A DNA stretch of 60,986 nt from assembly GCF_002210095.1 (NCBI RefSeq), contig NZ_AQQR01000021.1, positions 1 to 60,986 on the forward strand. Direction: 5' to 3'. The notes beneath the pieces are model-generated. The model was not told the origin of the DNA and made no database searches. It saw only the letters and a list, made by a program, of their open reading frames with translations. The stretch is from Marinibacterium profundimaris (lineage in GTDB: Bacteria; Pseudomonadota; Alphaproteobacteria; Rhodobacterales; Rhodobacteraceae). Shown here one piece after another: positions 12,691-56,796 of the stretch. The translations under genes were made by a program, and so were the position numbers. Within the stretch, counting starts at the first letter, position 1. Each line of letters opens with the position of its first letter.

Positions 12691-13503
12691 TCAGGTGCTG
12701 ACGCCCAGGCGCTCCATCAGTTCCAGGTCGCCCTCGGCGAAGGCTTCCAGATCGGCGCGGCCCCTGTCGGTGGCGATGCGGTTCAGAAGCTTCGGCCAGC
12801 GGCTCTGCTCGCGCGCCATCGGGCCCGCGTTGACATAGGTCCCCGTCACCGAGATCTGCGCGCCGAAGCGGGCGGCGATGTCGGCTTCCAGCTGGCCCAG
12901 GCCGGAGATCGGGTAGATCCGGTCGATATGCGAGGTGTTGGCCAGCGCCTTCTCAAGCCTCTGCGCCGCGGTCAGGTCGCGCAGCTCGGGCCGGCCGCGC
13001 ATCTTCCGCGTGGCCAGGTAGGAGACGTAGAAATTGTCGTAATGATCCCGGATGAAGGCATTGAACCCGGCCGGTCCGCCAAAGAAATACTCCTCGGCCG
13101 ACCGCTGCAGGATCAGCTTCTTGCCGTGGTTCTCGGGGCGCTCCAGCGCCGCGCGGTCCAGCGCCTCGGCCTCCTTCAGCAGGAAGAAGTAGAAGGACGC
13201 GATCCTCTCGCGCGGGTCGCGCAGCACGGTGAAGGTGAAGCGCCCGCCGGGCAGGGTTTCAAGCTCGGTCCAGTCGATATGGCCGGAATAGAGCGCATAG
13301 CCCGCCGGCATCTGCGGCGCGTCGCCCGGGGCCTGGGTATGGGTGCGGATCGGGCTGACATGCCGCCCCCCCACCATGGCGGCCAGGGCGTTGTGGATGG
13401 TCTGTCCCGCCGTCTTGGGGATGTGCAGGAAGACGATCGGCGATTGCGCCGCCAGCGCCGTGCCATTGGCCGAAGCCTGGGAGGTCAGGGATGAAATCGG
13501 CAT
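12691..13503 (-). CDS. Sulfotransferase-family protein
   Basis: A 270-residue protein with the PAPS-binding loop IVFLHIPKTAGQT near residue 22-34 and the downstream VLRDPRERIASFY, which supplies the second (3'-phosphate) Arg/Ser contact. Both are typical of type-2 carbohydrate sulfotransferases, which transfer sulfate from PAPS to sugar hydroxyls. The start at 13503 (MPISSLTS) is chosen over upstream frame because GGAG lies 8 bases before it and the core domain begins soon after. The acceptor cannot be told from sequence; the position among polysaccharide genes suggests a glycan. One of ten such proteins in the window. Confidence 0.82.
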   Translation of the reverse strand: MPISSLTSQASANGTALAAQSPIVFLHIPKTAGQTIHNALAAMVGGRHVSPIRTHTQAPGDAPQMPAGYALYSGHIDWTELETLPGGRFTFTVLRDPRERIASFYFFLLKEAEALDRAALERPENHGKKLILQRSAEEYFFGGPAGFNAFIRDHYDNFYVSYLATRKMRGRPELRDLTAAQRLEKALANTSHIDRIYPISGLGQLEADIAARFGAQISVTGTYVNAGPMAREQSRWPKLLNRIATDRGRADLEAFAEGDLELMERLGVST

Positions 13504-13591
13504 GGTCTCACTCCGAGGGCTGGGCCTTGTCCGGCCGTTGTCCCGCCGCCGGGCGGGGCTTGAGCATTCACTCCGGCCCGCGCCGGACAGC

Positions 13592-14317
13592 TCAGCTGTT
13601 GCGCAGGTCGAAGACGTCGGGCTGGAACTCGGGCTCGCCATCCATGCCCAGCACGCCGGTGACGAACTGGTGCGGCTTCGACGGGTCCAGATGCGTCAGC
13701 TGCCAGGGCGCGAACCGCCACCAGCGCGAACGCAGCATGCCCGAGATGATGTTGGGGTCCACCCGCCAGCGCTTGATCACCGCCGGGTTGCCCGCGACCA
13801 CCGCATAGGCCGGCACGTCCTTGGTCACCACCGCGTTGGCCGCCACCACCGCGCCATGGCGGATCGTCACGCCGGCGGCGATATAGGCGCCGTGGCCGAT
13901 CCAGACGTCATTGCCGATATTGGTGATCTTCACCCGGGTCGGCGGGCCATCGAAGGTGAACTTGTAATCGTGGTATTCCCGCCCGCCGGTGAAGTTCCGG
14001 CCCAGCGAGAACAGCTGATCCCCCAGGTAGAAGGCCGGCGAGGTCGACACCCAGCTCATCGGGTGGTTCTGCCGCCCGATCTGCACGTCTTCCCCGAAGG
14101 AGCAGTAGCGCCCGATCCGCGCGGCGAAGCAATAGCCCGACACCTGGTAGGAGAACGCCCCCAGTTCGATCGAATGTTCGTAATTGGTCCATTTCAGGCT
14201 GCCCGGCGCCTCGAGCACCGTGTGCCGCGGCAGGCCGACCTGGCCGCCGTTGCCGCGCGGCAGAACCTCGATCCCGGCGTTTTCCAGCCGTTTTATGGGT
14301 ATGCTGATCTTGCTCAT
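13592..14317 (-). CDS. Left-handed beta-helix (hexapeptide repeat) acetyltransferase
   Basis: A 241-residue protein of the CatB/LbH acyltransferase type. It has imperfect hexapeptide turns ([14 protein letters not shown], and later [45 protein letters not shown] in consecutive blocks) ending with the typical AGNPA. Such enzymes use acetyl-CoA to acetylate sugars. The start overlaps the stop of the upstream glycosyltransferase by four bases (ATGA), so the two are translationally coupled and probably act on the same glycan. Substrate is unknown. Confidence 0.85.
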
Positions 14318-18752: not shown

Positions 18753-18937
18753 TCGCGGCCGGGGGCGCGCGGGACTCCCCCGCGCGGCCCCACGCAACAC
18801 GGCCCCGCGCCGGGGCACCGGCCGCCAGTGTCCCATATCTAAGACACTATCCCAAATAAGATCCCCCAGGCGCCCCCCGCGCGCGCGCTGGTCCGCCGGC
18901 CTCTCCCGGTGCTTGCCTTCCCGGTGCGGTCTGGTAA

Positions 18938-18953
18938 CGAAGGATATCCTTCG
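18938..18953. other. Perfect 16-base palindrome upstream of a sulfotransferase gene
   Basis: CGAAGGATATCCTTCG is a perfect palindrome 31 bases before the ATG at 18985, flanked by GGT and ACC-like bases. It could be an operator or a hairpin in the leader. There is no direct evidence for either. Confidence 0.45.
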
Positions 18954-18984
18954 GACCAGGTCCGGCGCATCCCGGGAATCCGCC

Positions 18985-20031
18985 ATGCCCAGCTCTCTTC
19001 ACCTCCACATCGGCCACGGCAAGACCGGCAGCAGCTATCTGCAATCGGCGCTCGCCCTGTCGCTCCCGGCGCTGGAGGCGGCCGGCATCTGCTACCCGAT
19101 CGACGAGGCCACCGCGCGCTCGGCCGGCGAAGGCAACATCTCGGGCGGCAACATCCACGGCCGGGCCGGCGCCCTCGCGCAGCTGGCCGCCTCGGGCCGG
19201 GTGCCGAACGACCGCGCCTGCCTGCTCTCGGCCGAGAGCCTGTTCTACTACATCATGAAATCCCCCGAGGGCTTTCTCGAGGATCTCGCCGCCCTGCGCG
19301 GGCCCGATCCCGACAGGGTGCCGCTGCACGTGCTGCTCTACCTGCGCGACCCGGTCGATCACGCGGTGTCGCATTACCAGCAGTCGGTCAAGCGCGGCAA
19401 TTACACCGGCACCCTGGCCGACAGCCTCGGCCTCTACCGGCTGCCCGCGCAGACCCTGCGCGTGCTCGAGGTGCTGCGCGGCGCGGGGGCCGAGGTCACG
19501 ATCCTGAACTATTCGCGCCACCGCGCCCGGCTGCTGCCGACGCTGGAAAACTGGCTGGGCCTGGCCCCCGGCACCCTCGAGATCCCGCCGGTGGCCCAGG
19601 TCAACCGCTCGCCCACCCGGGCCGAGCTGGAGCTGCAGCGCCTGGTCAACGCCTCCGAGGCGCGGCAAAGCTGGCGCGTGGTCTCCGATCCGCTCTGCAA
19701 CCAGCTGCCCGAGATCCGCTCGGAACAGCCGGCGCTGTCGTCCGGGGCGCTGGCCGCCTTCCTCGACCAGATGGCCGCGGTGATCGGCTCCGACGCCTAT
19801 GCCGCCGCCGTGCCCGAGGCCGAACGCCCACGGGTCGGCACCCTGGCCGATTACGCGGGCCGCTTTCCCGATCCCGACGCGCAGGACGAGGCCGTCTACA
19901 GCTTCACCGCCGCCCAGCTGCAGGTGCTGGCCGGCGCCATCGGGGCCGAGATGAAGCGCTCCGACCACCTGCGCGACCGCCTGGAAAAGGCCCGCCGGCA
20001 GATCCACCGCCAGAAGAAGACCGCCGGCTGA
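18985..20031 (+). CDS. Sulfotransferase-like P-loop protein
   Basis: A 348-residue protein opening with SLHLHIGHGKTGSSYLQSAL. The GHGKTGSS loop is the sulfate-donor (PAPS) binding loop of bacterial sulfotransferase-like proteins, followed by LLYLRDPVDHAVSHYQQSVKRG, which supplies the conserved Arg and Ser for the 3'-phosphate. The C-terminus is a basic helix (RDRLEKARRQIHRQKK). The start is the first ATG before the P-loop; the ribosome site (GGGAA) is weak. The acceptor is unknown, and the genomic context suggests a glycan. It converges with the next sulfotransferase gene. Confidence 0.75.
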   Translation: MPSSLHLHIGHGKTGSSYLQSALALSLPALEAAGICYPIDEATARSAGEGNISGGNIHGRAGALAQLAASGRVPNDRACLLSAESLFYYIMKSPEGFLEDLAALRGPDPDRVPLHVLLYLRDPVDHAVSHYQQSVKRGNYTGTLADSLGLYRLPAQTLRVLEVLRGAGAEVTILNYSRHRARLLPTLENWLGLAPGTLEIPPVAQVNRSPTRAELELQRLVNASEARQSWRVVSDPLCNQLPEIRSEQPALSSGALAAFLDQMAAVIGSDAYAAAVPEAERPRVGTLADYAGRFPDPDAQDEAVYSFTAAQLQVLAGAIGAEMKRSDHLRDRLEKARRQIHRQKKTAG

Positions 20032-20068
20032 TCCCGGGCACGGGGTGGGTCACCCCGCCGCCGGACCC

Positions 20069-20092
20069 GTAGGGTGGGTTTTCAACCCACCG
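20069..20092. repeat. Short palindromic GTAGGGTGGG repeat (family 2)
   Basis: GTAGGGTGGGTTTTCAACCC and CACCG form an 8-bp stem (GGTGGGTT / AACCCACC) with a 3-base loop. The element overlaps the 3' end of the leftward gene and supplies its stop codon (20082-20084). Confidence 0.75.
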
Positions 20093-20987
20093 CTCCCCCC
20101 TTCGGAGCCCGCGTGACCCGGGCCACGTGTTTCGTCCAGGCCTCCAGGAAGGCCACCCCCGCGCCGTCGTCGTCCAGCCGCTCCACCGCGCGGCGCATCC
20201 AGCCCACCGGGTCGGGCGGCGCCGCCTGCAGGATCGCCTCCAGCGCCGGGCGCCGCGCCTCCACCGGTCCGATCGTCTCGTCGGCAAAGAACCCCGTCGC
20301 CCCGATCTGGCGCATCTTGCCGAGCGCGTCGCGCTCCACCTGCTGCATCTCGGCCACCGGCGGCTTGGGCCGGGCCGCGCTGCGTTCGCGCCGGCGCACG
20401 ATCCGGCCCAGCTCGTCCTCGCGGAACTCGGGGGGCACGTCCGGCGCCACATGGGCCAGCGCCTGCCCCATCACCGCCCGCCAGTCCGCGACCAGCGGCC
20501 CCTGCGGCACCGCCAGGATGTGATCGCACCGCTCCAGCCGGTGCAGCGCCCGCAGCAGCACCAGCGCGTCGCCGAAGGCAAAGAGCGCCCCGCGCCCGCG
20601 CGGCCAGCTGTCCTCGGGATCCGCCGCGCGCATCGCATAGGACGCCGCCACCTGCTCCAGCGGGCGCAGGCACAGAAGCGACGGCACCGGGCCCAGCTGG
20701 TCGTAAAGCGCGGCGAGGTTGTAGAAATAGGTCGGCGTCTTGTTGCCCCAGACCCGGATCCCCCCGCCCCGCGCCGTCACCTCGGCGACCGAGGACGGGC
20801 GCCAGAGCGGATCGTCATGGGCCAGGAAATCCCGCGGCGCGCGCAGGGCCCCGTGATCCATGAAGGTCGGAAACACCTCCAGCCCGCAATGCACCCCCGG
20901 CACCGCCGAGAGATAGGCCGCCACCGCCGAGGTCCCGCTGCGCGGCAGGCCGTAGACGAGGTAATCGAGCGGTCTCAGGCGGGGCAT
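20082..20987 (-). CDS. Sulfotransferase-family protein
   Basis: A 301-residue protein with the PAPS loop YGLPRSGTSAVAAYL near residue 12-26, the common form in sulfotransferase family 1/3 enzymes, and LLCLRPLEQVAASYAMR as the 3'-phosphate-binding region. The last residues (GGAVG) and the stop codon are encoded by a dispersed palindromic repeat, so the C-terminus may have been replaced when the repeat arrived (inference). The next leftward gene, another sulfotransferase, is 162 bases upstream. Confidence 0.78.
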   Translation of the reverse strand: MPRLRPLDYLVYGLPRSGTSAVAAYLSAVPGVHCGLEVFPTFMDHGALRAPRDFLAHDDPLWRPSSVAEVTARGGGIRVWGNKTPTYFYNLAALYDQLGPVPSLLCLRPLEQVAASYAMRAADPEDSWPRGRGALFAFGDALVLLRALHRLERCDHILAVPQGPLVADWRAVMGQALAHVAPDVPPEFREDELGRIVRRRERSAARPKPPVAEMQQVERDALGKMRQIGATGFFADETIGPVEARRPALEAILQAAPPDPVGWMRRAVERLDDDGAGVAFLEAWTKHVARVTRAPKGGAVG

Positions 20988-21149: not shown

Positions 21150-22070
21150 TCAGCCTGCGCCGCCGCAGGCGGGCTCCGTCTCCCGGAAATAGCTTTCATA
21201 GCCGTAGCCCATCGCATCGCCCACCGGGCCGCAGATCTTCACGAAGGTCTCCTTCTCCGCCTCGGTCCAGTCCAGCTCCGAGAACTTCAGGAACCGGGTC
21301 GGATCCCGCGTCGCGCTGGCCGCCTGCGGGCGCTCCGAGACGAGATAGGCGGCCATCCCCGCCTCCTCTTCCGGGGGCAGCTCCAGGTAGGCGGCGATGC
21401 GGGCGGCGATCGCCCCGGGCCGCACCGCCAGGTCGTTGAAATCGAAGGCCAGGTAATTGCCCTCCAGCTCCTCCTTCACCGTGGCCCAGGACCGGTTGCA
21501 CCTGGCCCAGACCCGGCACTGGGCTTCGAAACTCCGGCCGCTGAACTTCCTGATCTTCGACTGGACGTTGTCCACGTGCCGCCGCGCGCAGAAGATGAAC
21601 TTTGCATCCTGGTGGTAGCGGTTCAACAGCGGCACGGCGGCGACCATCCGGCTGGTCGGCGTCTTGTCCAGCAGGTAGCCCGACCGCCGCTGTTCCGACA
21701 GATAGGCCTCGTAGCCGCGAAACAGGTGGCGCAGCAGCGCCTCGCGGTCGATCCCGGCGCGGGCATTGCCCGGCCTTGGCCCGGCGGTGGTGGTGGCGCC
21801 ATAGGCCAGCACCTCCTCGGAGAGGCGCGACAGCAGGGGCTGCATGTGGCCCTCGCCGTAACCGTTGTAGCGGGTCCGCGCCAGCGCGTTGCGCAGCGCC
21901 GAGGTGCCCGAGCGCGACGAGCCCAGGATGTAGACGATCCGCGTCCTGCCGTCCTCGGGATACATCCCGTGCAGGCGGTCCCGGCGGCGCGGCCCCCGGG
22001 CCCGGGCCTCCTCCGCGTCGGGGACCGGCGCGGTGTCCCCTATGCCCGGCATCTCCGTCGGTCCCGACAT
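21150..22070 (-). CDS. Sulfotransferase-family protein
   Basis: A 306-residue protein with a charged N-terminal extension and then VYILGSSRSGTSALRNAL near residue 46-63, a sulfotransferase PAPS loop, with FIFCARRHVDNVQSKIRKFSGRS downstream as the second phosphate-binding element. DKTPTS upstream of that is also typical. The architecture matches bacterial sulfotransferase family 3. The acceptor is not predictable; it lies between a sulfotransferase and a GT4 gene on the same strand. Confidence 0.78.
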   Translation of the reverse strand: MSGPTEMPGIGDTAPVPDAEEARARGPRRRDRLHGMYPEDGRTRIVYILGSSRSGTSALRNALARTRYNGYGEGHMQPLLSRLSEEVLAYGATTTAGPRPGNARAGIDREALLRHLFRGYEAYLSEQRRSGYLLDKTPTSRMVAAVPLLNRYHQDAKFIFCARRHVDNVQSKIRKFSGRSFEAQCRVWARCNRSWATVKEELEGNYLAFDFNDLAVRPGAIAARIAAYLELPPEEEAGMAAYLVSERPQAASATRDPTRFLKFSELDWTEAEKETFVKICGPVGDAMGYGYESYFRETEPACGGAG

Positions 22071-22100: not shown

Positions 22101-23456
22101 TCAGCCGGCCGTGCCCGGCGCCGCGCCGCTGTCCGGCCGTCCCGCGATCCCGGGCTCATCCGCGGCCTCTTCCGGGGCCCCCGACACAGCCCCCGAGACA
22201 TCCGCCGTCACATCCGCGATCACGGCCCGGTGCGCCGCCCAGGCGTCTTCGACCGAGATCTCGTCGGGCATCTCCTGCGCCATGCTCTGCCACAGCTCGG
22301 CATTGCCGATGCAGATCTGCATCAGCTGCGCCAGCTCGGTGTCCGATCCGGGCAGGAACGAAAACCCGTTGACCCCCTCGATGATGCGGTCCGACAGCCC
22401 CCCCGCCCGCGAGGCCAGCACCGGGCGCCGCGCGTCCCAGGCCTCGGAGACCACAAGCCCGAAGGTTTCGGGCCAGATCGAGGGCGTCAGCACCCAGTCG
22501 ACCGAGGACATCAGCTCGAAGACGTTGTCGCGGCTGTAGGATCCGACCTCGGTCACCACCAGCTCGGGCGGCGCGCCGTCGAGCACCGCCTCGATCTTGT
22601 CCAGGTAATCGGCGGTGGCATATTCCTTGTTGCCGCCGAAGACCTTGATCTCCACCGGTTTGCCGGTCGTCTCGGCCACCCGGCGCGCGGCCTTGAGCGC
22701 GACGTCGATCCCCTTGGCATCGACGAACTGGCCGAAGAAGCCGAAGACGTTCAGCCCCGGGCTGTGCTGCGGCACGAACCCCTCGGGGCGGCGGCGGCGG
22801 TGGCCATTGGCGATGACGGTGATCCGGTCGGCGTCCAGCCCCCAGTCGACATACCGCTGTTTCAGGTAGTCCGAGGGCGCGATGAAGCGGTCGACCCTGG
22901 CAAAGGCGCTCTGGAAGCCGCGGCGGCGCAGGATGAATTCATCCGTGGTCCGTTCGGGGAAGCAGCCGGTGCACTGATCGGGCCGCGTATCCTGGCAGAT
23001 CCCGCCCTCGTGGTAGCGGTACAGCTGCCCCTGCCGGTGACAGATCGGCAGGTATTCGTGCAGCGTGTAGATGATCCTGGCCCCGGGCAGCACCTTGCGG
23101 ATCAGCTCGATCACGTCGAGCCCGACCCAGAGCGAATGGTGCAGGTGGATCACGTCGGGCCTGTGGTCGCGCAGGAACCGGGCCAGCGCCTTGTTGCGGC
23201 GCGGGTCGTACATGCGGTGGAAGAAATCGTCGAACCGCCGCCCCGGCATCAGGAACTCGTCCTCGCTGTCGGGCAGCGCGGTGATCGCGGCGCCGACCTT
23301 GGAATATTGCGGAAAGCGGTTGCCGTCGATCGCCGCCAGCATGACCGCCTCGACCTGCGGATCGGCGGCGGCTGCATCGTGCAGGTCCTTGGCCACGTAT
23401 TGCGCGCCGCCCCGCATGACCCGGGGATGGTAAAGCGAAAGGGTGAGAAACTTCAT
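22101..23456 (-). CDS. Glycosyltransferase family 4
   Basis: A 451-residue GT-B enzyme. The N-terminal domain opens MKFLTLSLYHPRVMRGGAQYVAKDL, with the acceptor-side Gly-Gly typical of GT4, then VIHLHHSLW. The donor domain has FGFFGQFVDAKGIDVAL and the catalytic SIWPETFGLVVSEAWDARRPVLA. The cysteine cluster CHRQ...CQDTRPDQCTGCF is a recurrent metal-like motif in such GT4 proteins. The last 40 residues are Ala/Glu/Asp-rich and probably disordered. ATG at 23456 lies 11 bases after the stop of the preceding GT2 gene. Confidence 0.88.
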   Translation of the reverse strand: MKFLTLSLYHPRVMRGGAQYVAKDLHDAAAADPQVEAVMLAAIDGNRFPQYSKVGAAITALPDSEDEFLMPGRRFDDFFHRMYDPRRNKALARFLRDHRPDVIHLHHSLWVGLDVIELIRKVLPGARIIYTLHEYLPICHRQGQLYRYHEGGICQDTRPDQCTGCFPERTTDEFILRRRGFQSAFARVDRFIAPSDYLKQRYVDWGLDADRITVIANGHRRRRPEGFVPQHSPGLNVFGFFGQFVDAKGIDVALKAARRVAETTGKPVEIKVFGGNKEYATADYLDKIEAVLDGAPPELVVTEVGSYSRDNVFELMSSVDWVLTPSIWPETFGLVVSEAWDARRPVLASRAGGLSDRIIEGVNGFSFLPGSDTELAQLMQICIGNAELWQSMAQEMPDEISVEDAWAAHRAVIADVTADVSGAVSGAPEEAADEPGIAGRPDSGAAPGTAG

Positions 23457-26187: not shown

Positions 26188-26895
26188 ATGAAATTCATCC
26201 ACCTTCACATCCCGAAAACCGCGGGCACCTCGCTGCGCGAGAGCATCGTCGTGGCCCATCCCGAGCTGAAGGTGCAGGGCATCGTCGACCCGGTGCCCGA
26301 GACGATCCCGGCCGAGGTCGACATCGTGTCGGGGCATATCTCCCACGAGGACGCGATGCGCTTCGGCGGGCAGATGGGCACCGACCAGGTGGTCACCGTG
26401 CTGCGGCACCCGATCGACCGCTTCGTGTCGATCTACTACTTCTGGCGCGAGCTTTACGACAAGGACATCGAGAAGACCCGCAAGACGACGACGGCGCACA
26501 AGCTGTCGCTTCTGGATTTCGCCCGGGCCATGGACGAGCCCGAGCTGTGTTCGGAGCTTTACAACCGGATGTCCTGGCAGCTGCATTCCAGCTACCGGCT
26601 GATGCGGCGCTTCGAGATGCGGCGCGATCACGGGATGACGCAGGACGACCTGGCCGAGCAGGTGATGGCGAACCTGCGCAGCTTCGCGGTGGTCGGGTTC
26701 CAGGACCATTACGGGGATTTCGTCGCGGCGATCAACGACCGGTTCAAGCTGGATATCGAGAACCGCAAGATCAACGTCACCCAGCGGCGCAGCTCGGTCG
26801 AGGACCTGTCGCATGCCGAGCTGCAGGCGATCCTGCCCTGGGTCTCGGTCGACATGGAAGTCTACGCCGCCGCCCTGCGCGAATTCGGCAAATAA
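26188..26895 (+). CDS. Sulfotransferase family 2 protein
   Basis: A compact 235-residue protein beginning MKFIHLHIPKTAGTSLRES, so the PAPS loop is at the extreme N-terminus, as in type-2 sulfotransferases related to heparan/chondroitin enzymes. HPELKV... SGHISHEDA supplies a likely acceptor-site His, and VLRHPIDRFVSIYYFWREL the 3'-phosphate site. The ATG at 26188 is chosen because the domain begins immediately. The stop is followed 13 bases later by repeat R1. Confidence 0.83.
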   Translation: MKFIHLHIPKTAGTSLRESIVVAHPELKVQGIVDPVPETIPAEVDIVSGHISHEDAMRFGGQMGTDQVVTVLRHPIDRFVSIYYFWRELYDKDIEKTRKTTTAHKLSLLDFARAMDEPELCSELYNRMSWQLHSSYRLMRRFEMRRDHGMTQDDLAEQVMANLRSFAVVGFQDHYGDFVAAINDRFKLDIENRKINVTQRRSSVEDLSHAELQAILPWVSVDMEVYAAALREFGK

Positions 26896-26975: not shown

Positions 26976-26980
26976 GGGAT

Positions 26981-27056: not shown

Positions 27057-28106
27057 CTAGCCCTTCTTCTCCAGCGTCTCGCGCAGCTCGGCCACCTCTT
27101 CCTTCAGCGCCAGCACCTGCGCCTGCAGCGCGAAGGTCATGCGGAACAGCATCTGCTGCAGCTCCCAGTCGCTGGCCTCCAGCTCCGGCGGGGTCACCGG
27201 GTCGAAGACCATGGGCGGCTGCCCCTGCTCTTGCAGCCGTGCATTGATCTGCTCCAGGTCCGCGCGGAACGTCTCCTGCGTGGCCTCCACGTCGCCGGCA
27301 TCGGGCAGCAGCTCCTGCGGCTTCGGCACCACCCCGTTGGGATTGCGCGTGATCTGCAGCGGCGCCGCGAGCCGCCGGAAATCCGCCGCCCAGGTCGGCC
27401 CCGGCCGCGAGCCGCTGAACACGGTCCAGGCCGTCATCAGCCCGGCGCCCCGCGCCTCGTTCGCCCGCACCGAGGACACCCCCTCGAGCCCCAGGATCTG
27501 CCCGCAGAAATGCTGCGCCACGTCCCCGATCTCGTCGAAATTATAAAGCTCGATCTGCGGGAAATGCTGCGCCCAGGTCTCGACATGATCGGCATAGGTC
27601 AGCCGCGGCGCGGCCTCCTCCAGCCAGTCGGCATACTTGTGCAGCGCGCCCTGGTGGCGCTTCGACCGGATCTCGAATTCCGTGTAGGCCGAGATCGCGC
27701 GCTTGTCGTGGCGCCGCATGTAGACCACCGGGCGCACCTTGACCCCGTCGGCGGCGACCTTCTGCAGGATCCGCAGGATCCGCCACTTCTGCACCAGGAA
27801 GGCCTCGTTGCTCCAGACCACCTGGCGCACGCCCAGCCCGGCCAGCCGCTCCAGCTCGTCGCGCAGGACCTGCTCCACCTCCGCCTCCACCGGGGTGTCG
27901 GGGCGGGGGGCAAAGAACAGCTGCGGCCGGTCGCGTTCGCACCAGGCATGCGCCGTGGCGCCGGGCACCTCTTCCAGCGCGAGCCCCATGTAGGACAGGC
28001 CCGCCGCCGCCAGCGCCTCGGGATTGCGCATCAGCGTGAATTGCAGCGAGGTCGAACCGGCCTTGCCCGCCCCGATATGGACGATGAGTTCGGGAAGATC
28101 TGCCAT
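27057..28106 (-). CDS. Sulfotransferase-like P-loop protein
   Basis: A 349-residue protein beginning MADLPELIVHIGAGKAGSTSLQ. The GAGKAGSTSL loop is of the sulfotransferase-like type found also at 18985. VVYMRRHDKRAISAYTEFEIRS is the likely 3'-phosphate site. The C-terminal 35 residues (LQQMLFRMTFALQAQVLALKEEVAELRETLEKK) form a coiled coil, which suggests oligomerisation. ATG at 28106 is chosen; GGAAAG precedes it and upstream sequence in the same frame belongs to repeat R2. Confidence 0.75.
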   Translation of the reverse strand: MADLPELIVHIGAGKAGSTSLQFTLMRNPEALAAAGLSYMGLALEEVPGATAHAWCERDRPQLFFAPRPDTPVEAEVEQVLRDELERLAGLGVRQVVWSNEAFLVQKWRILRILQKVAADGVKVRPVVYMRRHDKRAISAYTEFEIRSKRHQGALHKYADWLEEAAPRLTYADHVETWAQHFPQIELYNFDEIGDVAQHFCGQILGLEGVSSVRANEARGAGLMTAWTVFSGSRPGPTWAADFRRLAAPLQITRNPNGVVPKPQELLPDAGDVEATQETFRADLEQINARLQEQGQPPMVFDPVTPPELEASDWELQQMLFRMTFALQAQVLALKEEVAELRETLEKKG

Positions 28107-29517: not shown

Positions 29518-29703
29518 GGGGGCTCTGCCCCCGTCGCCTGCGGCGACTCCCCCGGAGGTATTTTTGCAAAGATGAAGACAGGGGACAGCGCGCGGCCCGG
29601 CCCCTTGCCATGTTTGCAGATGTGGGATCCGCAGGGTGGAAAACAGGGCGCGCGCCCGGGGCCGTCGCGTCCACGTCCTGTCTTCATCTTTGCAAAAATA
29701 CCT
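29518..29703. repeat. Nested palindromic repeat, family 1, copy B, inside parAB
   Basis: The outer arms GAGGTATTTTTGCAAAGATG... and the perfect complement ending CTTTGCAAAAATACCTC are 28 bases each. An inner pair starts TGTTTGCAGATGTGGGATCC (29611-29645). To the left lies a second hairpin-rich arm (GGGGGCTCTGCCCCC, then GTCGCCTGCGGCGAC). The right end touches the parA stop codon. The element sits between cotranscribed parA and parB. Confidence 0.85.
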
Positions 29704-31073
29704 CATTCCCCGCTCTCCACCATGTCCCGCCGCCAGGTCCCGATGAGCAGACGCTTGAAGGCGGCATAGGTCGCATCGAAGGTCTCGCGCCCGCGGGCAT
29801 AGGTCTCGCGGTTGAAGTCGCGGTAATCGGCCTCGTAGATGCCCGAGACCTGCTCGCCCGCCTGGCCGATCAGCGCGGTGAAATCCTGCCGGTGGGGCGA
29901 GAGGGTGCGGCCGAGGTAGGCCTGGATCAGCGAGGCCATCTCGCCCTGTTGCGCGCCGTCGTAGCGGGTGATCACCGCGCGCACCGCGTCCCATTGGAAA
30001 TTCAGCTCCTCGCGGCCCAGGGCGCGGGCGGCGATGTTCTCGCCCTCCTCGATCGAGGCGAAGGTGGAATGGAGCATGTCGAAGAAGCGGCCCGTGCTGT
30101 CGAATTCGAGGAACGACGCGCCGAGGGGGACCAGCAGGATGTCGGCCGCCGCCAGCCCGTTGATCGTCAGGTAGCCGAGCGCGGGGGGCGTATCGATGAA
30201 GATCACGTCGTAATCCGACAGCACCCCGTCGGCCTCCAGCCGGTCGGTCAGCGCGTCCCAGAGCTTCCAGCCGCGCGAGGAGATCCGCCAGACCGGGATC
30301 TGGAATTCCGCCCAGTAGAGGTTCAGCTGCGCGCCGATCAGGTCGATATTGGGCCAGTGGGTCGGCTGCACCAGGTCCTTCGAGGACATCTCGAGCGCGG
30401 TCGACAGCATCTCGTCCAGCGGCTGGGGCGCCTCGCCCCGGGCGGCGCGGGCGCGGTTTTCCTCGCGCAGGTGGTCGCCGTAATGGCGGGCGATCAGCGG
30501 GAAGGCGGTCTGCCATTCGTCCTCGACGCGGCCGCCGAAGATCGAGGTCATGGAGCCCTGGCTGTCCAGGTCGATCACCAGCACCCGGTAGCCGTCGAGT
30601 GCCGCCGACATCGCCAGATGCGCCGCCGTCGAGGTCTTGCCGACGCCGCCCTTGAAATTGGCCACCGCCACGAGTTTGGCGGGCAGGCCTTCGGGCCGGT
30701 AAGGTTTGTATTCCTTCGCGCGCGAGCCCTGGCTGGCGAAATGGGCGCGCAGGCGCAGCACCTCGTCGAGGGTGAACCACTTCGCCCCGCCGTCGGTTTC
30801 CGAGCGGCCCTGGGGCAGGTCGGGATTGGCCTTCAGCACGCGGCGGAAATGGGCCTGGGCCACCGGGATCAGGTAGCGCGTGATCTCCCAGGTGGAGAAG
30901 AGGCGCAGCGATTTGCGCCCCTCGGTGTCCAGCCCGCGCGAGGCGAGATCGGCGCGGCCGCGGGCGCAGGCCTCGGCGATCTGTGCGAAACCGGCGGTGG
31001 TGCCGGGGGCGTCGAGCTCGGCCAGGGCGGCGTCCGCGTCGATGTTGAAATAGGGGGGGAGGGTCCCGGCCAT
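29703..31073 (-). CDS. parA: ParA-family partition ATPase with N-terminal DNA-binding domain
   Basis: A 456-residue type-Ia ParA. The first 130 residues hold a helix-turn-helix region (STWEITRYLIPVAQAHFRRVLKAN), expected to repress the par promoter. The ATPase domain follows with the deviant Walker A KGGVGKT (141-147), VLVIDLDSQGSMTS as Walker A', and DVIFIDTPPALGYL as Walker B. It is the motor for plasmid segregation with ParB. An inverted repeat lies 40-56 bases upstream of its ATG. It is divergent from repA across the origin. Confidence 0.93.
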   Translation of the reverse strand: MAGTLPPYFNIDADAALAELDAPGTTAGFAQIAEACARGRADLASRGLDTEGRKSLRLFSTWEITRYLIPVAQAHFRRVLKANPDLPQGRSETDGGAKWFTLDEVLRLRAHFASQGSRAKEYKPYRPEGLPAKLVAVANFKGGVGKTSTAAHLAMSAALDGYRVLVIDLDSQGSMTSIFGGRVEDEWQTAFPLIARHYGDHLREENRARAARGEAPQPLDEMLSTALEMSSKDLVQPTHWPNIDLIGAQLNLYWAEFQIPVWRISSRGWKLWDALTDRLEADGVLSDYDVIFIDTPPALGYLTINGLAAADILLVPLGASFLEFDSTGRFFDMLHSTFASIEEGENIAARALGREELNFQWDAVRAVITRYDGAQQGEMASLIQAYLGRTLSPHRQDFTALIGQAGEQVSGIYEADYRDFNRETYARGRETFDATYAAFKRLLIGTWRRDMVESGE

Positions 31074-37204: not shown

Positions 37205-38047
37205 ATGGCGCCGCAGCCCCCCCAGCCGCGTCTGTTGCGCTATGCCGCCGCGCATCGCAGGACGCTGGCCACCAACCCCGATCACGGCTTTGCCGCGGAT
37301 TACGCGCTGTGCCATTACCGGGCCGGGGCGGTCTACAGCTTCATCCCCAAGAACGCCTGTTCGACCCTGCGGCTGAGCCTGGCCATCGCCAACGGCGCCA
37401 TCGCGGGGCCCGAGGACTGGACCTGGATCCACGCCAACAACCCGACCTTCCGCGCCGCGCTGCGCGACCTGGCCACGGCGGATTTCACCTTCACCGTGCT
37501 GCGCTGCCCCCATGCGCGGCTGGCCTCGGTCTTTCTCGACAAGATCGTCGGCCGCAGCCCGGAATACTGGCTGCTCTTCCGCGAGACCGGCGAGACGATC
37601 GACCCCAAGCGCTTCAGCTTCCGCGATTTCGTGGGGCTGGTGAGCGCGGACGACGACTGGCAGCAGCTGAACGAACACTGGCGCCCGCAGGTCGATTTCC
37701 TGGTCTACGCCGAATACGACGCCTGGTACGCGGTGGAACGCATGGCCGAGGCGCGCGACGACCTGGCCGCGCGGATCGGCTTTGACCTGGTCGATGCGCG
37801 CGGGCTGACCCGCCACGGCACCGACCGGTTCGACCTGATCGAGGGCGATTACGCCGATACGTCCATGGCCGAACTGGCCGCGCTGCAGGAGGCGGGCCGC
37901 GCGCCGTCCCATGCGGCCCTTTACGACGACGCGCTGGTCGGGGCGGTGGCGCGGGCCTGGGCCTGCGACCTGGCGCTTTACCGCGACCGGATCGGGGCGG
38001 CGACCCTGACCTTTCCGGACGCGGATTTCGAACCCAAGGAGACCTGA
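37205..38047 (+). CDS. Sulfotransferase-family protein inside the rhamnose operon
   Basis: A 280-residue protein with YSFIPKNACSTLRLSLA near residue 44-60. IPKNACSTL is the PAPS loop form of Golgi-type and bacterial family-2 sulfotransferases. FTVLRCPHARLASVFLDKIVG is the second phosphate site, with Cys where Asp or His is usual. It is packed between rfbD and rfbA with spacings of four and three bases, so it is certainly in the same transcript. Confidence 0.82.
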   Translation: MAPQPPQPRLLRYAAAHRRTLATNPDHGFAADYALCHYRAGAVYSFIPKNACSTLRLSLAIANGAIAGPEDWTWIHANNPTFRAALRDLATADFTFTVLRCPHARLASVFLDKIVGRSPEYWLLFRETGETIDPKRFSFRDFVGLVSADDDWQQLNEHWRPQVDFLVYAEYDAWYAVERMAEARDDLAARIGFDLVDARGLTRHGTDRFDLIEGDYADTSMAELAALQEAGRAPSHAALYDDALVGAVARAWACDLALYRDRIGAATLTFPDADFEPKET

Positions 38048-41314: not shown

Positions 41315-41929
41315 ATGACACCAGCCAAGCGCCTTCTCGACCTGTTCTTCGCTGTCCTGCTCGTGGGTCTCCTGGGGCCGGTGATGCTGGGCCTGCTGAT
41401 CTGGCTCTGGGTGAAACAGGGCCGGCCGCTGTTCTACGTGGCCGAGCGGATGAAGACCCCGGACCAGCCCTTCATGCTGTGGAAGCTCAGGACCATGACC
41501 GTGGTCGACAGCGATGCCGGCGTCTCGGGCGGGGACAAGGCGGCGCGGATCACGCCCGCCGGCGCCTGGCTGCGGGGCAAGCGGCTGGACGAGTTCCCGC
41601 AGCTGTGGAACATCCTGCGTGGCGACCTGAGCTTCGTCGGTCCGCGCCCGCCCCTGCGCGCCTATGTCGAACGCTTCCCGGAGATCTACGGCGAGGTGCT
41701 GAAATCCCGCCCCGGGGTGACCGGGCTTGCGACCATCGTCTACCACAAGCACGAAACCGCCCTGCTGGAGCGCTGCGCCACGCCGGAGGAGACCGACGCG
41801 GTCTATGCCCGCAACTGCGTGCCAAGAAAGGCGCGGCTGGACCTGATGTACCAGAAGAACCGCAACATCTGCGTGGATTTCGACATCGTCTTCCAGACCA
41901 TCGGCAACCTGGTGCGGCGCGGGAAATAG
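41315..41929 (+). CDS. Initiating sugar-phosphate transferase (polyprenyl-phosphate hexose-1-phosphate transferase)
   Basis: A 204-residue monotopic membrane enzyme of the bacterial sugar transferase family. It has an N-terminal hydrophobic hairpin (LFFAVLLVGLLGPVMLGLLIWLW), then WKLRTM, KRLDEFPQLWNILRGDLSFVGPRPPL with the catalytic Asp-Glu pair, and SRPGVTGLATI. It starts glycan synthesis by moving a sugar phosphate to undecaprenyl phosphate. It is the short form without the extra membrane domain of WcaJ. ATG at 41315 is used. Confidence 0.92.
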   Translation: MTPAKRLLDLFFAVLLVGLLGPVMLGLLIWLWVKQGRPLFYVAERMKTPDQPFMLWKLRTMTVVDSDAGVSGGDKAARITPAGAWLRGKRLDEFPQLWNILRGDLSFVGPRPPLRAYVERFPEIYGEVLKSRPGVTGLATIVYHKHETALLERCATPEETDAVYARNCVPRKARLDLMYQKNRNICVDFDIVFQTIGNLVRRGK

Positions 41930-53288: not shown

Positions 53289-54002
53289 ATGGATCGCACG
53301 GTCGTCCTTCATTATCACCTGTTCAAGAACGCGGGGACGTCGCTCGACCAGATCCTCAGGCGCAACTTCGGCCCGCGCTGGGTCACGCGCGAATTCCCGA
53401 TGAGCGAGGACAACAGCGCCGAGCTTGCCGAGTGGATCCGCTCCGAACCCGGGGCCGTGGCCTTTTCCACCCATACCGCCATGGGGCCGGTGCCCCGGAT
53501 CGAGGGCGTGAACATCGTCTCGGTCATGCTGCTGCGCGATCCGGTCGCGCGGATCCGCTCGGCCTATCGCTTCGAGCGCAAGCAGGACGCCGACACCTGG
53601 GGCGCCGAGCTGGCCAAGCAACACGATCTCGAAGGATACGTGCGCGCCCGGCTCGAGCGGGTCAACGACCGCCAGTGCCGCAATTTCCAGACCCACCGCC
53701 TGGCCTCCATGGTGCCCGGCGACGCGCCCGAACTCGACCGGGCCCGCGCGGGGCTGCGCCAGCTGTCGGTGGTGGGGCTCGTGGAGGCCTTCGAGGACGC
53801 GGTGTCGGACCTGGCCGGGGCGATCCGCCCGGCCTATCCCGATTTCGAGTGGAAGACCGTGCGCGCCAACACCACCACCGCGGCGCCTCCGACCTCCGAA
53901 GACGCCCGTATCGACACGCTGATGGCCGAGGCGAACGCGGATGACAGGGCGCTGCTGGCCGAGGCCCGGGCGCTTCTGGACGGCGCCCGAGAGCCGGAAT
54001 GA
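53289..54002 (+). CDS. Sulfotransferase-family protein
   Basis: A 237-residue protein beginning MDRTVVLHYHLFKNAGTSLDQIL. FKNAGTSL is the PAPS loop and VMLLRDPVARIRSAYRFERK the 3'-phosphate site. THTAMG between them may supply acceptor contacts. It overlaps wcbI by four bases (ATGA), so the sulfotransferase and WcbI are translationally coupled. Confidence 0.8.
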   Translation: MDRTVVLHYHLFKNAGTSLDQILRRNFGPRWVTREFPMSEDNSAELAEWIRSEPGAVAFSTHTAMGPVPRIEGVNIVSVMLLRDPVARIRSAYRFERKQDADTWGAELAKQHDLEGYVRARLERVNDRQCRNFQTHRLASMVPGDAPELDRARAGLRQLSVVGLVEAFEDAVSDLAGAIRPAYPDFEWKTVRANTTTAAPPTSEDARIDTLMAEANADDRALLAEARALLDGAREPE

Positions 54003-54928: not shown

Positions 54929-54967
54929 ATCCGAACCGCCAAGCGGCCTGCAATCGGCGCCTCCGCG

Positions 54968-56236
54968 CTAGCAGACCCGGCTCAGCGCCTCTTCCAGCCG
55001 GTCCAGCGGAACGACCACGTCACGGCGGTTGTGGGCCGCGTTATGCTGGACCGTCCTGTAATCGACCGTGCCGAATTCGGGATCCTGGCAGGTCACGGAT
55101 TCATAGCCCAGTCCACGCAGCCGGGCCATGTACCAATAGGCATGCGTCCCGCAGAGCGGCGCATGCAGTTCCACGACCGACCCACCGTCAGGCTGGAAGG
55201 CCAGGTTTGCCAGCCCTGCGCCATGCACCCCCATCAGCACCTCGACCCCGGCAAAAAGCTGCAGCTGCGCGCGGACGGACATCGTGGCCGGATCGCCGAA
55301 GGCAAAGCCGAAGCGTGCCGCAAGCGCGCGGGTCTCCTCGGCATTGACGATGTTGCGGGGCAGGCCCGGGGCCCGTTCGATCATGAACCGCCGCGCCTGC
55401 GGGCCGTCGGGATCCTTCGGGATCCGCGCGCGGATGCGCGCCAGAACGGCGAGATGCGCGTCCGAGCCGACCTGGGCCGGGTGGCGCAACCCGTTGAAAC
55501 TGTCCGACAGCAGCACCAGGTCGGCGAAGCGCACCGTGCCACGCACCCTGGGCCCCGCCCCCGACTGTCCTCCGGGCCGCCCCGCCAGCGCGCGCAAGGG
55601 CAGGCCCAGCATCGCCGCGATCTCGTCGGCATATCCGAAGGGGTGGAACAAAAGCGCCTGGCGCGCGCCGAAGGCGCTCTCGGCCAGAAAGGCCCGCGGC
55701 AGCTTGTCGAACAGGAAATGGCAGATGTTCGGCTTGATGAAAAAGTCATCAATCAGCACCGACGGCGCGTCGATCTCTTCCTCGACCTCTTCGAGGAAGG
55801 GCGCCGCGCCGAAGAACATGCCGTTGATCAGCCGGCCCTCGCGGTCGAACAGGTAGAATTCCGGCCGCCCCATCCTGCTCACGTCGAAGGACAGGCGCAC
55901 GTCGCGGAACCGGAAGGCGTCAAGCCGCAACCGGGGCATGCGCTGGTTGCGGTGGAAAACGTAGTGATCGTCGAAGGTGGGCGCGGCGATCTCGGGGCCC
56001 GGATCGGGCGGCATCACCGTGATGCGCTCTGCGGCGGCCTCGTCCAGCGGGGCCACGCCGATCTCGGGCCAGGCCGCATCCGCATCGGCCAGCATGGCCC
56101 GGATCTTTTCGGCGTCGAACAGCCAGTCGGTGGTCAGCACGCCGCTGAGCGCCCCCCGGGTCAGGCGCAGGAAATGGGTCGGCAGATCGTCGGGCGCCTT
56201 CGGGGGGGTGTTTTTCGGAGCCGCGGGCGCAGTCAT
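54968..56236 (-). CDS. Family 61 glycosyltransferase
   Basis: A 422-residue protein of the GT61 (DUF563) type, with IDDFFIKPNICHFLFDKLPRAFLAE, RRFMIERAPGLPRNIVNAEE and LMGVHGAGLANLAFQPDGGSVVELH, the typical final motif. In bacteria these act on capsule and LPS glycans. It overlaps the stop of the preceding sulfotransferase gene by four bases (ATGA), forming a two-gene unit. Confidence 0.88.
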   Translation of the reverse strand: MTAPAAPKNTPPKAPDDLPTHFLRLTRGALSGVLTTDWLFDAEKIRAMLADADAAWPEIGVAPLDEAAAERITVMPPDPGPEIAAPTFDDHYVFHRNQRMPRLRLDAFRFRDVRLSFDVSRMGRPEFYLFDREGRLINGMFFGAAPFLEEVEEEIDAPSVLIDDFFIKPNICHFLFDKLPRAFLAESAFGARQALLFHPFGYADEIAAMLGLPLRALAGRPGGQSGAGPRVRGTVRFADLVLLSDSFNGLRHPAQVGSDAHLAVLARIRARIPKDPDGPQARRFMIERAPGLPRNIVNAEETRALAARFGFAFGDPATMSVRAQLQLFAGVEVLMGVHGAGLANLAFQPDGGSVVELHAPLCGTHAYWYMARLRGLGYESVTCQDPEFGTVDYRTVQHNAAHNRRDVVVPLDRLEEALSRVC

Positions 56237-56796
56237 TCCGTCTTGCCCCGAACGGCCCATTTGTCGGTGTCGAGCTGGAAATCCAGCTTGCCCTGCAATT
56301 GCGCCCAGTCCGGCTTGTCGATGTCCCAGACGAACAGGCGCTCGCGCAGCGGACCCGAGAAGTACTCCAGCACCGCCAGGTGATGGCGGAACCATTCCAA
56401 GCGCCAGCGGTCGAAGGTCTCGGCATCGGTCTCGTAGCCGTAATAACGGCGATAGGCCGAGGTATAGGCCCCCTCGCCATGCTTGTGGCGGCTGCGGATC
56501 CAGCCCTCGACATTGCGGGTGTTGAGAATGAAGAGCGCCTCCGGGTAGGCGGCGTGCAAGTCCCGGAAATACCGGTAGCCCTCGGTCATGTCCCGGGCGT
56601 GGACATATTCCATGTCGGAAAAGACATTCACGTCGGGCCAGGGCGCCAGGGGCACGCCGCCGGTCTCGACCGCCTGCCGGATGTCCTTGGCCAGGTCTCC
56701 CCGCATCCAGTCGGCGGTCTGCAGCCCGTGCCGCTTGAAGAAATGGCTGATCGCGCGCGTGGCGCATTTGTTGAAACCGATCTGGATAATCTTCAT
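56233..56796 (-). CDS. Sulfotransferase-like protein
   Basis: A 187-residue protein beginning MKIIQIGFNKCATRAISHFFKRHG. GFNKCATRAI is a PAPS-type loop seen in sulfotransferase-fold proteins that accompany polysaccharide genes. FILNTRNVEGWIRSRHKHGEG is the 3'-phosphate-binding part. It is short for the fold. ATG at 56796 is used, with AGGA about 11 bases upstream. Translationally coupled to the GT61 gene. Confidence 0.75.
   Translation of the reverse strand: MKIIQIGFNKCATRAISHFFKRHGLQTADWMRGDLAKDIRQAVETGGVPLAPWPDVNVFSDMEYVHARDMTEGYRYFRDLHAAYPEALFILNTRNVEGWIRSRHKHGEGAYTSAYRRYYGYETDAETFDRWRLEWFRHHLAVLEYFSGPLRERLFVWDIDKPDWAQLQGKLDFQLDTDKWAVRGKTE

Follow-up and report, generated by a model that had tools for sequence, protein, structure and literature searches.

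Biofilm plasmids and sulfated surface polysaccharides

Biofilm plasmids decide the surface attachment of some marine roseobacters. pPGA1_65 of Phaeobacter inhibens, for which a biofilm role is reported, carries RepA-I, a complete rhamnose operon and a predominance of polysaccharide genes. The available text of PMC4148953 and PMC3910554 describes RepA-I, a complete rhamnose operon and mostly polysaccharide genes for pNanh_C61 and pDaep_C117 as well. In the excerpts of the literature searched, no chemical structure was found for the polymer of a biofilm plasmid.

Sulfated surface sugars are known for few bacteria. The first-pass annotation of the window, which is the whole 60,986-nucleotide stretch of DNA analysed here, had called such polysaccharides uncommon; that description stands, yet documented cases exist. 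According to the available excerpts, the synechan (xss) cluster on plasmid pSYSM of Synechocystis encodes two sulfotransferases (STs) and eight glycosyltransferases (GTs), its product contains sulfate, and, of the two ST mutants, one was not substantially altered. The excerpted account of the sulfated capsule of Vibrio sp. KMM 8419 takes the closeness of an ST to the rhamnose operon as pointing to sulfated rhamnose, and that of the Salipiger mucosus exopolysaccharide gives a sulfate content of 0.9%.

The window resembles each of these systems in part. It shares RepA-I, a complete rhamnose operon and the dominance of polysaccharide genes with pPGA1_65, but encodes ten STs, whereas pPGA1_65 has three by profile (one annotated as an ST); many STs are thus not needed for this plasmid type. 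Like the synechan cluster, as described in the excerpts, it combines plasmid-borne ST, GT and export genes, and synechan itself contains rhamnose. Synechan, however, has Wzx/Wzy assembly, two STs and a product proven to be sulfated, whereas the window has ABC-type export, ten STs and a predicted product. The Vibrio locus, in the excerpted description, likewise has ABC export and an rml operon with a nearby ST, but carries three ST genes and cysNDC, while the search of the window replicon found none for PAPS synthesis. The presence of ten STs on this known kind of plasmid is unreported in the literature searched.

Replicon type

The window belongs to the roseobacter biofilm plasmids, in which RepA-I and ParAB accompany a dTDP-rhamnose operon; a role in biofilms is predicted here from gene content.

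31555..32580 (+), RepA-I replication initiator, PF10134 346 bits
28437..29468 (-), ParB-like partition protein, PF02195 25.2 bits, slightly below the cut-off of 26.3
29703..31073 (-), ParA partition ATPase, PF13614 101 bits
33809..34369 (+), rmlC, PF00908 236 bits
34413..35459 (+), rmlB, 89% identical to pLA6_007 rffG and 83% to pPGA1_65 rfbB
36331..37200 (+), rmlD, PF04321 339 bits
38051..38923 (+), rmlA, 92% identical to pLA6_007 rmlA1
58973..60986 (+), GT2-GT4 protein, N-terminal part, PF00535 78 bits; remainder at 2-1114, PF13692 72.5 bits

A RepA-I replicase with ParAB is present: RepA-I is 87% identical to the annotated RepA-I of pLA6_007 and 76% identical to that of pPGA1_65, and the ParA and ParB-like proteins are 85% and 50% identical to the ParA counterpart and the ParB-type protein of pPGA1_65. 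All four rmlCBDA genes lie within 33809-38923, with two STs inserted between them. In a comparison covering 17 kb and two end stretches of a contig from another assembly, bases 60986 and 1 of the window were located 37 bp apart within that single contig. By arithmetic, the gene spanning the window ends stays in frame across this gap. At about 61 kb, the window represents an almost complete circular biofilm plasmid of the RepA-I type, from a probable member of Marinibacterium.

Ten sulfotransferase genes

The ten ST genes are real, and all ten coordinates named in the first-pass annotation coincide with gene ends also chosen by a codon-usage gene call.

12691..13503 (-), ST 1, HIPKTAG loop, Sulfotransfer_2 29.2 bits (cut-off 22)
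18985..20031 (+), ST 2, family A, HIGHGKTGSS loop, R121/S129; invariant motifs, model and fold search
20082..20987 (-), ST 3, GLPRSGTS loop, Sulfotransfer_3 27.9 bits (cut-off 27), borderline
21150..22052 (-), ST 4, GSSRSGTS loop, Sulfotransfer_3 49.5 bits (cut-off 27)
26188..26895 (+), ST 5, HIPKTAGTS loop, Sulfotransfer_2 32.1 bits (cut-off 22)
27057..28106 (-), ST 6, family A, HIGAGKAGST loop; motifs, model and fold search
35587..36303 (+), ST 7, between rmlB and rmlD, Sulfotransfer_2 38 bits (cut-off 22)
37205..38047 (+), ST 8, between rmlD and rmlA, Sulfotransfer_2 36.3 bits (cut-off 22)
53289..54002 (+), ST 9, Sulfotransfer_2-like, HLFKNAGTS loop, 19.9 bits in Pfam, below the cut-off of 22
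56233..56796 (-), ST 10, GFNKCATR loop, Sulfotransfer_4 39.1 bits (cut-off 22.8)

Seven of the ten pass a curated Pfam ST cut-off, with Sulfotransfer_2 (12691, 26188, 35587 and 37205), Sulfotransfer_3 (20082 and 21150) or Sulfotransfer_4 (56233). The proteins at 18985 and 27057 have no ST match in Pfam or NCBIfam and belong to family A, an ST group without a Pfam model. All ten nevertheless contain both a loop of the PAPS type and an R-x7-S element. A two-motif pattern of nucleotide loop followed by R-x7-S, composed after inspection of these ten sequences, recovered 10/10 STs and none of the 38 other gene calls in the window. Its background was 65 of 10,000 shuffled ST sequences and 38 of 5,558 other open reading frames (ORFs) from 39 replicon records, and its sensitivity was limited to 100 of the 146 ORFs picked by ST profiles in those records. 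In 18985 the first R-x7-S that the pattern picked up was spurious, and the invariant pair is R121/S129; the phosphosulfate loop and R-x7-S are invariant in both family-A alignments, A1 and A2. No eleventh ST emerged in the window from searches with profiles seeded from these ten.

Structure prediction, set beforehand as a check, was run with AlphaFold for two of the ten and supported one of them. The 18985 model (pLDDT 94.4) retrieved only sulfotransferases at ranks 1-13 of a PDB fold search, the family member retinol dehydratase among them, although E was below 0.001 for rank 1 only (5.6e-4) and the query-length TM was at most 0.35 throughout these ranks. The search with the 27057 model (pLDDT 81) was ambiguous, listing tyrosylprotein ST-2 (TPST2) first, followed for the most part by kinases of the P-loop type and further nucleotide enzymes. 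Together with the PDB profile matches given next, the Pfam matches, the motifs and the 18985 fold search support the proposed ST identity of the set.

Profile comparisons with the PDB covered further members. Alignment A5, comprising STs 1, 5, 7, 8 and 9 with relatives (14 rows), best matched heparan sulfate 2-O-sulfotransferase (E 3.8e-7) over a short segment, profile positions 10-95 of 235. The window STs differ from this Sulfotransfer_2 enzyme in that none of the ten shows a membrane-like segment by hydropathy. For alignment A4 (20082 and 21150; 11 rows), the nearest profiles were polyketide (PKS), tyrosylprotein and small-molecule STs, and retinol dehydratase was among its matches as well as those of the 18985 model. 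Such matches, and the absence of a curated family for 18985 and 27057, would suit the view that some of these proteins keep the ST fold but catalyse another reaction, as retinol dehydratase does, or are inactive. This is very unlikely, as the loop lysine or arginine and R-x7-S are retained in all ten.

The diversity claimed for the set was also confirmed, the closest pair by E-value being 25% identical over 122 amino acids (E 2e-8). The two family-A proteins, 18985 and 27057, share a 34-residue stretch at 50% identity.

Polysaccharide genes and a model for sulfation

The remaining annotation bears out the description of the STs as set among export, rhamnose and glycosyltransferase genes.

2367..5251 (-), YjbF and YjbH polysaccharide secretion genes, PF11102 100 bits and PF06082 681 bits
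5527..7413 (-), PglF-like UDP-sugar 4,6-dehydratase, PF02719 374 bits, 92% identical to a pLA6_007 protein annotated pglF
7910..8623 (-), KpsT-like ABC exporter ATPase, PF00005 61 bits, 88% identical to pLA6_007 kpsT_2
8703..10226 (-), KpsE/CtrB/BexC-like export protein, TIGR01010 221 bits, under its own cut-off of 437.5
10719..11513 (+), KpsM-like ABC-2 permease, PF01061 48.9 bits
11520..12446 (+), glycosyltransferase GT2, PF00535 48.6 bits
14314..16956 (-), glycosyltransferase with GT2 and GT4-like domains, PF00535 59.7 bits, PF13692 24.9 bits (below the cut-off of 27)
22101..23456 (-), glycosyltransferase GT4, PF00534 67.6 bits
23468..24955 (-), glycosyltransferase GT2, PF00535 37.2 bits
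39102..40217 (-), Wza-like outer-membrane polysaccharide export protein, PF02563 and SLBB domain
41315..41929 (+), priming sugar-phosphate transferase, PF02397 155 bits
44061..44954 (+), glycosyltransferase GT2-like, PF13704 61 bits
53999..54928 (+), WcbI-family polysaccharide enzyme, PF18588 111 bits
54968..56236 (-), glycosyltransferase GT61, PF04577 55.5 bits
57201..58658 (-), mannose-1-P guanylyltransferase / mannose-6-P isomerase, TIGR01479 570 bits (cut-off 373)

The Pfam scan, which took in the window genes apart from a few small or rml ones, gave no Wzx or Wzy family; an ABC/OPX-type export machine with a KpsM/T/E-type exporter is encoded instead. Donor synthesis is encoded away from the window, as had been predicted: a genome search for the APS kinase family had a single match, a bifunctional Sat-CysC on contig C18, outside the replicon (1044 bits, cut-off 669). 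The first-pass annotation had placed this supply on the chromosome, of which C18 may be a part.

Since ten diverse STs lie on a plasmid of the biofilm type, its surface sugar is probably sulfated. It is proposed that soluble PAPS-dependent STs sulfate the plasmid-encoded surface polysaccharide before export, a reading to which we give better than even credence. The plasmid would encode a polysaccharide built from rhamnose and mannose precursors. PAPS made by Sat-CysC would be used by the STs in the cytoplasm, where they may add sulfate to different residues, including rhamnose, as the glycan grows. Export through the KpsMT-like transporter, the KpsE-like protein and the Wza-like and YjbFH outer-membrane parts would follow, yielding a sulfated, polyanionic matrix or capsule that would serve in attachment. 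Were the polymer sulfated, this would explain a polyanionic adhesive in sea water, tie plasmid transfer to surface chemistry and make such plasmids a source of diverse bacterial sulfotransferases.

A heavy degree of sulfation, and its position-specificity at particular acceptor sites, are likewise predictions. A division of labour among the STs over different residues is plausible, given that they come from distinct families and that several are coupled to individual sugar genes: 37205 lies 4 nt from rmlD and 3 nt from rmlA, 53289 overlaps the WcbI gene by 4 nt and 56233 overlaps the GT61 gene by 4 nt. Several STs might instead act on O-antigen, lipids, small molecules or proteins, leaving the exopolysaccharide little sulfated. 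The PDB neighbours of alignment A4 favour such acceptors, and no conservation of acceptor sites is known across the ST superfamily. The position of all ten STs among polysaccharide genes, two of them overlapping such genes and two inside the rhamnose operon, argues otherwise and makes these other acceptors distinctly unlikely.

Conservation and distribution

A search for conserved ST sets on related plasmids, also set beforehand as a check, found one on pLA6_007 of Marinibacterium anthonyi. Its host is probably of the same genus, since genome G239, called the same genus, has the same RepA and ST places (contig C8). Eight of the ten STs have best-match orthologues there: 12691 (76% identity, dN/dS 0.34), 18985 (71%), 20082 (72%, dN/dS 0.63), 21150 (54%), 26188 (79%), 27057 (70%), 37205 (71%) and 53289 (75%, dN/dS 0.25). 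The orthologues of the borderline 20082 and the sub-threshold 53289 themselves score 32.9 and 22.9 bits in Pfam. There is no orthologue of 35587, which has a weak partial match (23%), or of 56233, which has no match. Genes shared between the two replicons encode proteins 54-92% identical, and on pLA6_007 the rml order is unchanged, an ST again separating rmlD from rmlA. This plasmid differs from the window in its size (104 kb), a RepC gene, type IV secretion genes, a sulfatase and three family-A STs of its own.

All eight orthologue pairs have dN/dS of 0.25-0.63, counted here as a sign of selection. Most of these values are above the range of the rep, par and rml genes, 0.13-0.28 with 0.46 for rmlD; weak constraint may therefore apply to some STs. 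Syntenic stretches of SP126 contain relatives of five window STs at 65-79% identity, including 12691 (79%) and 26188 (78%); none was found there for 21150. On other RepA-I contigs, the best near-full-length relatives are 28-67% identical and occur on few contigs, among them a 60% relative of 56233 on contig G126:C45; 21150 has no relative beyond pLA6_007 among those compared.

These strong differences between ST sets, the STs particular to either plasmid and the higher dN/dS would fit a fast-changing decoration repertoire, in which only some STs are active or important at once and variety itself, as a defence against phages or grazers, is selected in place of one heavily sulfated polymer. The retention of eight STs on pLA6_007 with dN/dS below 1, together with the five SP126 relatives, speaks against such turnover, which we consider fairly unlikely. 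Sulfation of the plasmid-encoded polysaccharide is the preferred reading.

The remaining 6.09 Mb of the genome contain 14 other STs, against ten in 61 kb, an approximately 71-fold difference in density (binomial p about 1.6e-14) that is a post hoc statistic because the window was picked for its STs. That choice is also what lends some colour to chance accumulation of STs with no coordinated role. Both the density and the recurrence of STs on other RepA-I replicons render chance highly improbable. In a partly selected sample of 38 RepA-I replicons, 34 carried one or more STs, five of them nine or more, and four had none; in a hand count taken roughly down the RepA ranking, 25 of 29 had at least one. 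The first-pass annotation is to be amended on this point, such STs being not unusual for RepA-I biofilm plasmids. A wider proposal, which we advance tentatively as possible rather than probable, is that the whole class of RepA-I biofilm plasmids serves as mobile sulfation systems: marine roseobacters would swap diverse ST sets, the broad family A included, and thereby vary how their rhamnose-containing surface polymers are sulfated, a parallel in bacteria to the combinatorial sulfation seen in animal glycosaminoglycans.

Counting against the preferred reading, ST numbers did not differ between replicon records with and without rml genes (p 0.39). Among 28 replicons that carry three or more rml genes, four have an ST inside the operon; the check covered 26 operons, leaving aside two replicons whose rml genes lie far apart, and 22 of these operons hold none. 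Conserved placement speaks in its favour: the position between rmlD and rmlA is occupied in the window, pLA6_007 and contig G213:C11, whose ST is 57% identical to 37205, and that between rmlB and rmlD in the window and contig G152:C15, which carries a 46% relative of 35587.

Ten sulfotransferases in the window

The first-pass annotation had placed ten sulfotransferase (ST) genes in the window, and the codon-usage gene call confirms them: all ten coordinates (12691, 18985, 20082, 21150, 26188, 27057, 35587, 37205, 53289 and 56233, used here as names) coincide with gene ends among the 48 genes called. Seven of the proteins pass a curated Pfam ST cut-off and 53289 falls slightly below it; Pfam and NCBIfam scans matched no ST family for 18985 or 27057. 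A two-motif test, composed after inspection of the ten sequences and consisting of a nucleotide loop followed by R-x7-S, found both motifs in all ten and in none of the 38 remaining gene calls. Eight or more of the ten are almost certainly STs.

Comparison of the ten with each other led to the rejection of recent tandem duplication as their origin; the diversity reported in the first-pass annotation makes position-specific action plausible. Hydropathy analysis revealed no membrane-like stretch in any of the ten, which fits sulfation in the cytosol prior to export. Elsewhere in the host genome (6.15 Mb in 60 contigs, the window contig included), 14 further STs were found, three by PF03567, seven by PF13469 and PF00685, and four by the profile of family A, a putative ST group that has no Pfam model. 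Set against these 14 in the remaining 6.09 Mb, ten STs in 61 kb give a post hoc density ratio of approximately 71-fold, in which 53289 is counted in the window despite being absent from the genome-wide PF03567 matches; excluding it leaves nine.

Family A, a putative sulfotransferase group

Family A is represented in the window by 18985 and 27057. In these proteins and their relatives, the HIGxGK(T/A/C)GS loop and the R-x7-S pair (Arg121 and Ser129 in 18985) form invariant or nearly invariant columns. In the structural model of 18985 (pLDDT 94.4), the loop comes after the first strand, and Arg121 lies directly past a strand, ahead of the helix bearing Ser129. Known STs place the loop, the arginine and the serine in the same way relative to these strands and the helix. 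A PDB fold search with this model returned ST-family entries at ranks 1–13, only one of them at E < 0.001, with TM scores (query length) of at most 0.35. The model of 27057 is weaker; its fold search returned STs at ranks 1, 5, 9 and 21, with kinases and other nucleotide enzymes predominating.

Single-sequence PDB searches with 27057 and 18985 found no ST, and STs came only from profile and fold searches. The family A profile retrieved five PDB sequences at E values up to 1, four of them STs (E 0.01–0.17). Profile–profile comparison gave weak matches to two other ST alignments, one with a probability of 50 and E of 1.6e-4 over 35 columns around R-x7-S, and the other with a probability of 17 and E of 0.0015. 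When named genomes were searched for a single conserved loop pattern, 86 relatives emerged, of which 79 loci were kept; they come from Alphaproteobacteria, Gammaproteobacteria, Cyanobacteria, Acidimicrobiales, Bacteroidetes and others. Within the fetched stretches of the 61 loci of at least 12 kb, a second ST is present in 30, a relative of the window glycosyltransferases in 27, and neither in 21. Outside the roseobacters, loci of this family with multiple ST hits occur in Zobellella endophytica (L148; seven hits in 17 kb) and a Parasphingopyxis metagenome-assembled genome (MAG; L133; five hits).

Replicon type and circularity

RepA of the window shares 87% identity with the annotated RepA-I of pLA6_007, a plasmid of Marinibacterium anthonyi, and 76% with that of the Phaeobacter inhibens biofilm plasmid pPGA1_65; ParA, ParB and rmlC-B-D-A (dTDP-rhamnose genes) are common to all three. 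G239, a genome from the same genus as the host, carries its RepA and an ST in positions matching those on pLA6_007; it is probably M. anthonyi, which would make the host a Marinibacterium. RepA-I plasmids with a rhamnose operon and mostly polysaccharide genes are described from Leisingera and Phaeobacter (PMC4148953, PMC3910554), and a P. inhibens replicon has been termed a biofilm chromid (PMC9025767). Bases 60986 and 1 of the window are separated by 37 bp within one contig of another assembly, and a glycosyltransferase gene spans the window ends in frame once these 37 bp are added. The window contig (C14, 60,986 bases) is therefore an almost closed circle of approximately 61.0 kb.

The bridging contig (61,035 bases) is part of a MAG labelled Fulvimarina sp. 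NAT173. The places of this contig agree with those of the fetched locus L130, 17 kb that are 100% identical to window positions 10985–28028. This MAG appears to hold a copy of the window plasmid, which indicates either a mixed bin or transfer of the plasmid. A second host RepA, 53% identical, is encoded on another contig (G000:C29:12866-13840), which is probably a further plasmid.

Sulfotransferases across RepA-I replicons

RepA matches occur in 104 of 295 family genomes, and 35 contigs were fetched at RepA identities of at least 68%. Six were chosen for STs already seen (G257, G152, G189, G063, G153 and G067); the other 29 were selected by working roughly down the RepA ranking, with some high-ranking contigs skipped and ST matches known beforehand, so that bias is possible. 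For contigs over 80 kb, G257 was covered whole, G043, G031, G200, G005, G035 and G067 up to a limit of 80 kb, and G288 up to 60 kb; several of the other contigs surveyed are short fragments. Because of their equal length, Pacificitalea pDY25-D and G149:C5 were treated as one plasmid, the 50-kb copy being omitted from the 38 replicons; 39 records were used for per-record ST counts, the two-motif test, relatives of the window STs and the rml tests.

Searches with iterated, overlapping profiles built from the ten detected at least one ST on 34 of the 38 replicons, at least five on 11 and at least nine on five (the window, pLA6_007, G257:C11, G213:C11 and G005:C16). At E < 1e-20, the ST total on the other 37 replicons falls from 136 to 118, 34 of 38 are still positive and four have at least nine. 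Among the 29 contigs taken roughly by RepA rank, 25 have an ST (median two), six at least five and two at least nine. Genome-wide, PF03567 and PF13469 matches each occur in 77 of 80 RepA-bearing genomes. Given this recurrence, the ST density singled out in the first-pass annotation places the window near the top of a graded range, but does not make it peculiar. Across the 39 records, rml presence showed no link to ST number.

Conservation of the ST set

The search for a conserved ST set on related plasmids, proposed in the first-pass annotation, succeeded on pLA6_007, where eight of the ten window STs have best-hit orthologues (54–79% identity; dN/dS 0.25–0.63); for 35587 and 56233, none was found there. 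Corresponding dN/dS values are 0.18–0.42 for glycosyltransferases and 0.13–0.46 for rep, par and rml genes, all being simple Nei–Gojobori counts on GC-rich genes. Syntenic stretches of another MAG (SP126) hold relatives of 12691, 18985, 20082, 26188 and, partly, 27057, and a Seohaeicola saemankumensis contig (L141) holds relatives of at least five window STs at 44–67% identity.

Downstream of one orthologous ST, the window carries a WcbI gene (53999–54928) and pLA6_007 a family A ST (L011:33103-34074), an exchange of one tailoring enzyme for another at this locus. pLA6_007 also encodes a sulfatase-family protein (PF00884, 108 bits; L012:4507-5814) amid its ST and glycosyltransferase genes; the window genes that were scanned yielded no sulfatase. 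Three other window proteins rank with the plasmid's most rapidly diverging.

Fast-changing window proteins (dN/dS against pLA6_007)
17631–18752, DUF2793 protein, 0.74
48343–50364, GH39-like protein (below its family cut-off), 0.61
50374–52881, beta-helix protein, 0.79

Polysaccharide genes and donor supply

The window encodes RmlABCD, a GDP-mannose enzyme and a PglF-like dehydratase for sugar nucleotides; a priming transferase and seven glycosyltransferase genes (the end-spanning one counted once) for assembly; and a KpsM/KpsT-like transporter, a KpsE-like protein, a Wza-like OPX protein and YjbF/YjbH for export. A hexapeptide acyltransferase, a GNAT protein, FkbM and other methyltransferases, WbqC and WcbI are also present; no Wzx or Wzy family was found among the window genes scanned. 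37205 lies 4 nt from rmlD and 3 nt from rmlA, and 53289 and 56233 overlap the WcbI gene and a GT61 gene, respectively, by 4 nt. An ST occupies the rmlD–rmlA interval in the window, pLA6_007 and G213:C11, and the rmlB–rmlD interval holds one in the window and in G152:C15. Of 28 replicons that have three or more rml genes, 26 of which could be checked, four carry an ST inside the rml operon. In the capsule locus of Vibrio KMM 8419, an ST by the rhamnose operon was taken as a sign of rhamnose sulfation (PMC11641403).

The only APS kinase family match in the host genome is a 572-residue protein on contig C18, which at 1044 bits (cut-off 669) matches a bifunctional sulfate adenylyltransferase/adenylylsulfate kinase (Sat-CysC). 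This enzyme supports a supply of the sulfate donor PAPS from outside the window; the first-pass annotation expected it to come from the chromosome, to which C18 may belong. It is proposed that Sat-CysC would produce PAPS, that the soluble STs would use it to sulfate residues of a glycan based on rhamnose and mannose precursors within the cytoplasm, and that the ABC/OPX machine would export the sulfated glycan. The STs probably make a sulfated exported polymer, and the first-pass interpretation as a whole is partly supported.

Comparison with published systems

The closest worked example is synechan, whose plasmid cluster contains two STs and eight glycosyltransferases and whose rhamnose:mannose:galactose:glucose:sulfate composition is 1:1:1:5:2; mutation of one ST abolishes bloom formation, and mutation of the other causes no substantial change (PMC8205485). 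The same paper deems ST genes in other bacterial exopolysaccharide clusters unknown. Elsewhere, a Vibrio capsule locus has three ST genes (PMC11641403), Pontiella F21 has three putative GAG-type STs, one in an exopolysaccharide-type cluster (PMC7356697), and Salipiger mucosus, of the Roseobacter lineage, makes an exopolysaccharide with 0.9% sulfate (PMC2953402). In the accessible text of a Nautella R11 study, an ST figures among the proteins peculiar to two strains, with no position given. No report on the STs of RepA-I plasmids was found in the literature searched, although most subscription papers lay outside its scope and absence is not proven. The window is a known kind of plasmid whose ST-rich property was not found reported, and this property is directly testable.

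Repeats and regulatory elements

No Rfam family reached its cut-off anywhere in the window. Near the rml operon, the promoter scan gave two matches against 0.6 expected, and the terminator scan four against 4.0. A 161-nt direct repeat (80% identity) lies at 1290–1450 and 1968–2128, one copy falling at a small predicted gene with two matches on pLA6_007. Directly 3′ of the mannose-1-phosphate guanylyltransferase gene, at 57071–57196, is a 63-nt tandem duplication (97% identity) with a palindromic core. An intergenic repeat with the core GCCAAGAAGAAGACAGG occurs at 12517–12533, 29566–29693, 38983–39037 and 41984–42112. At up to three mismatches the core has seven matches in the window against 0.12 expected, six of them forming inverted pairs, and genome-wide it has 16 exact copies against none for the reversed control.
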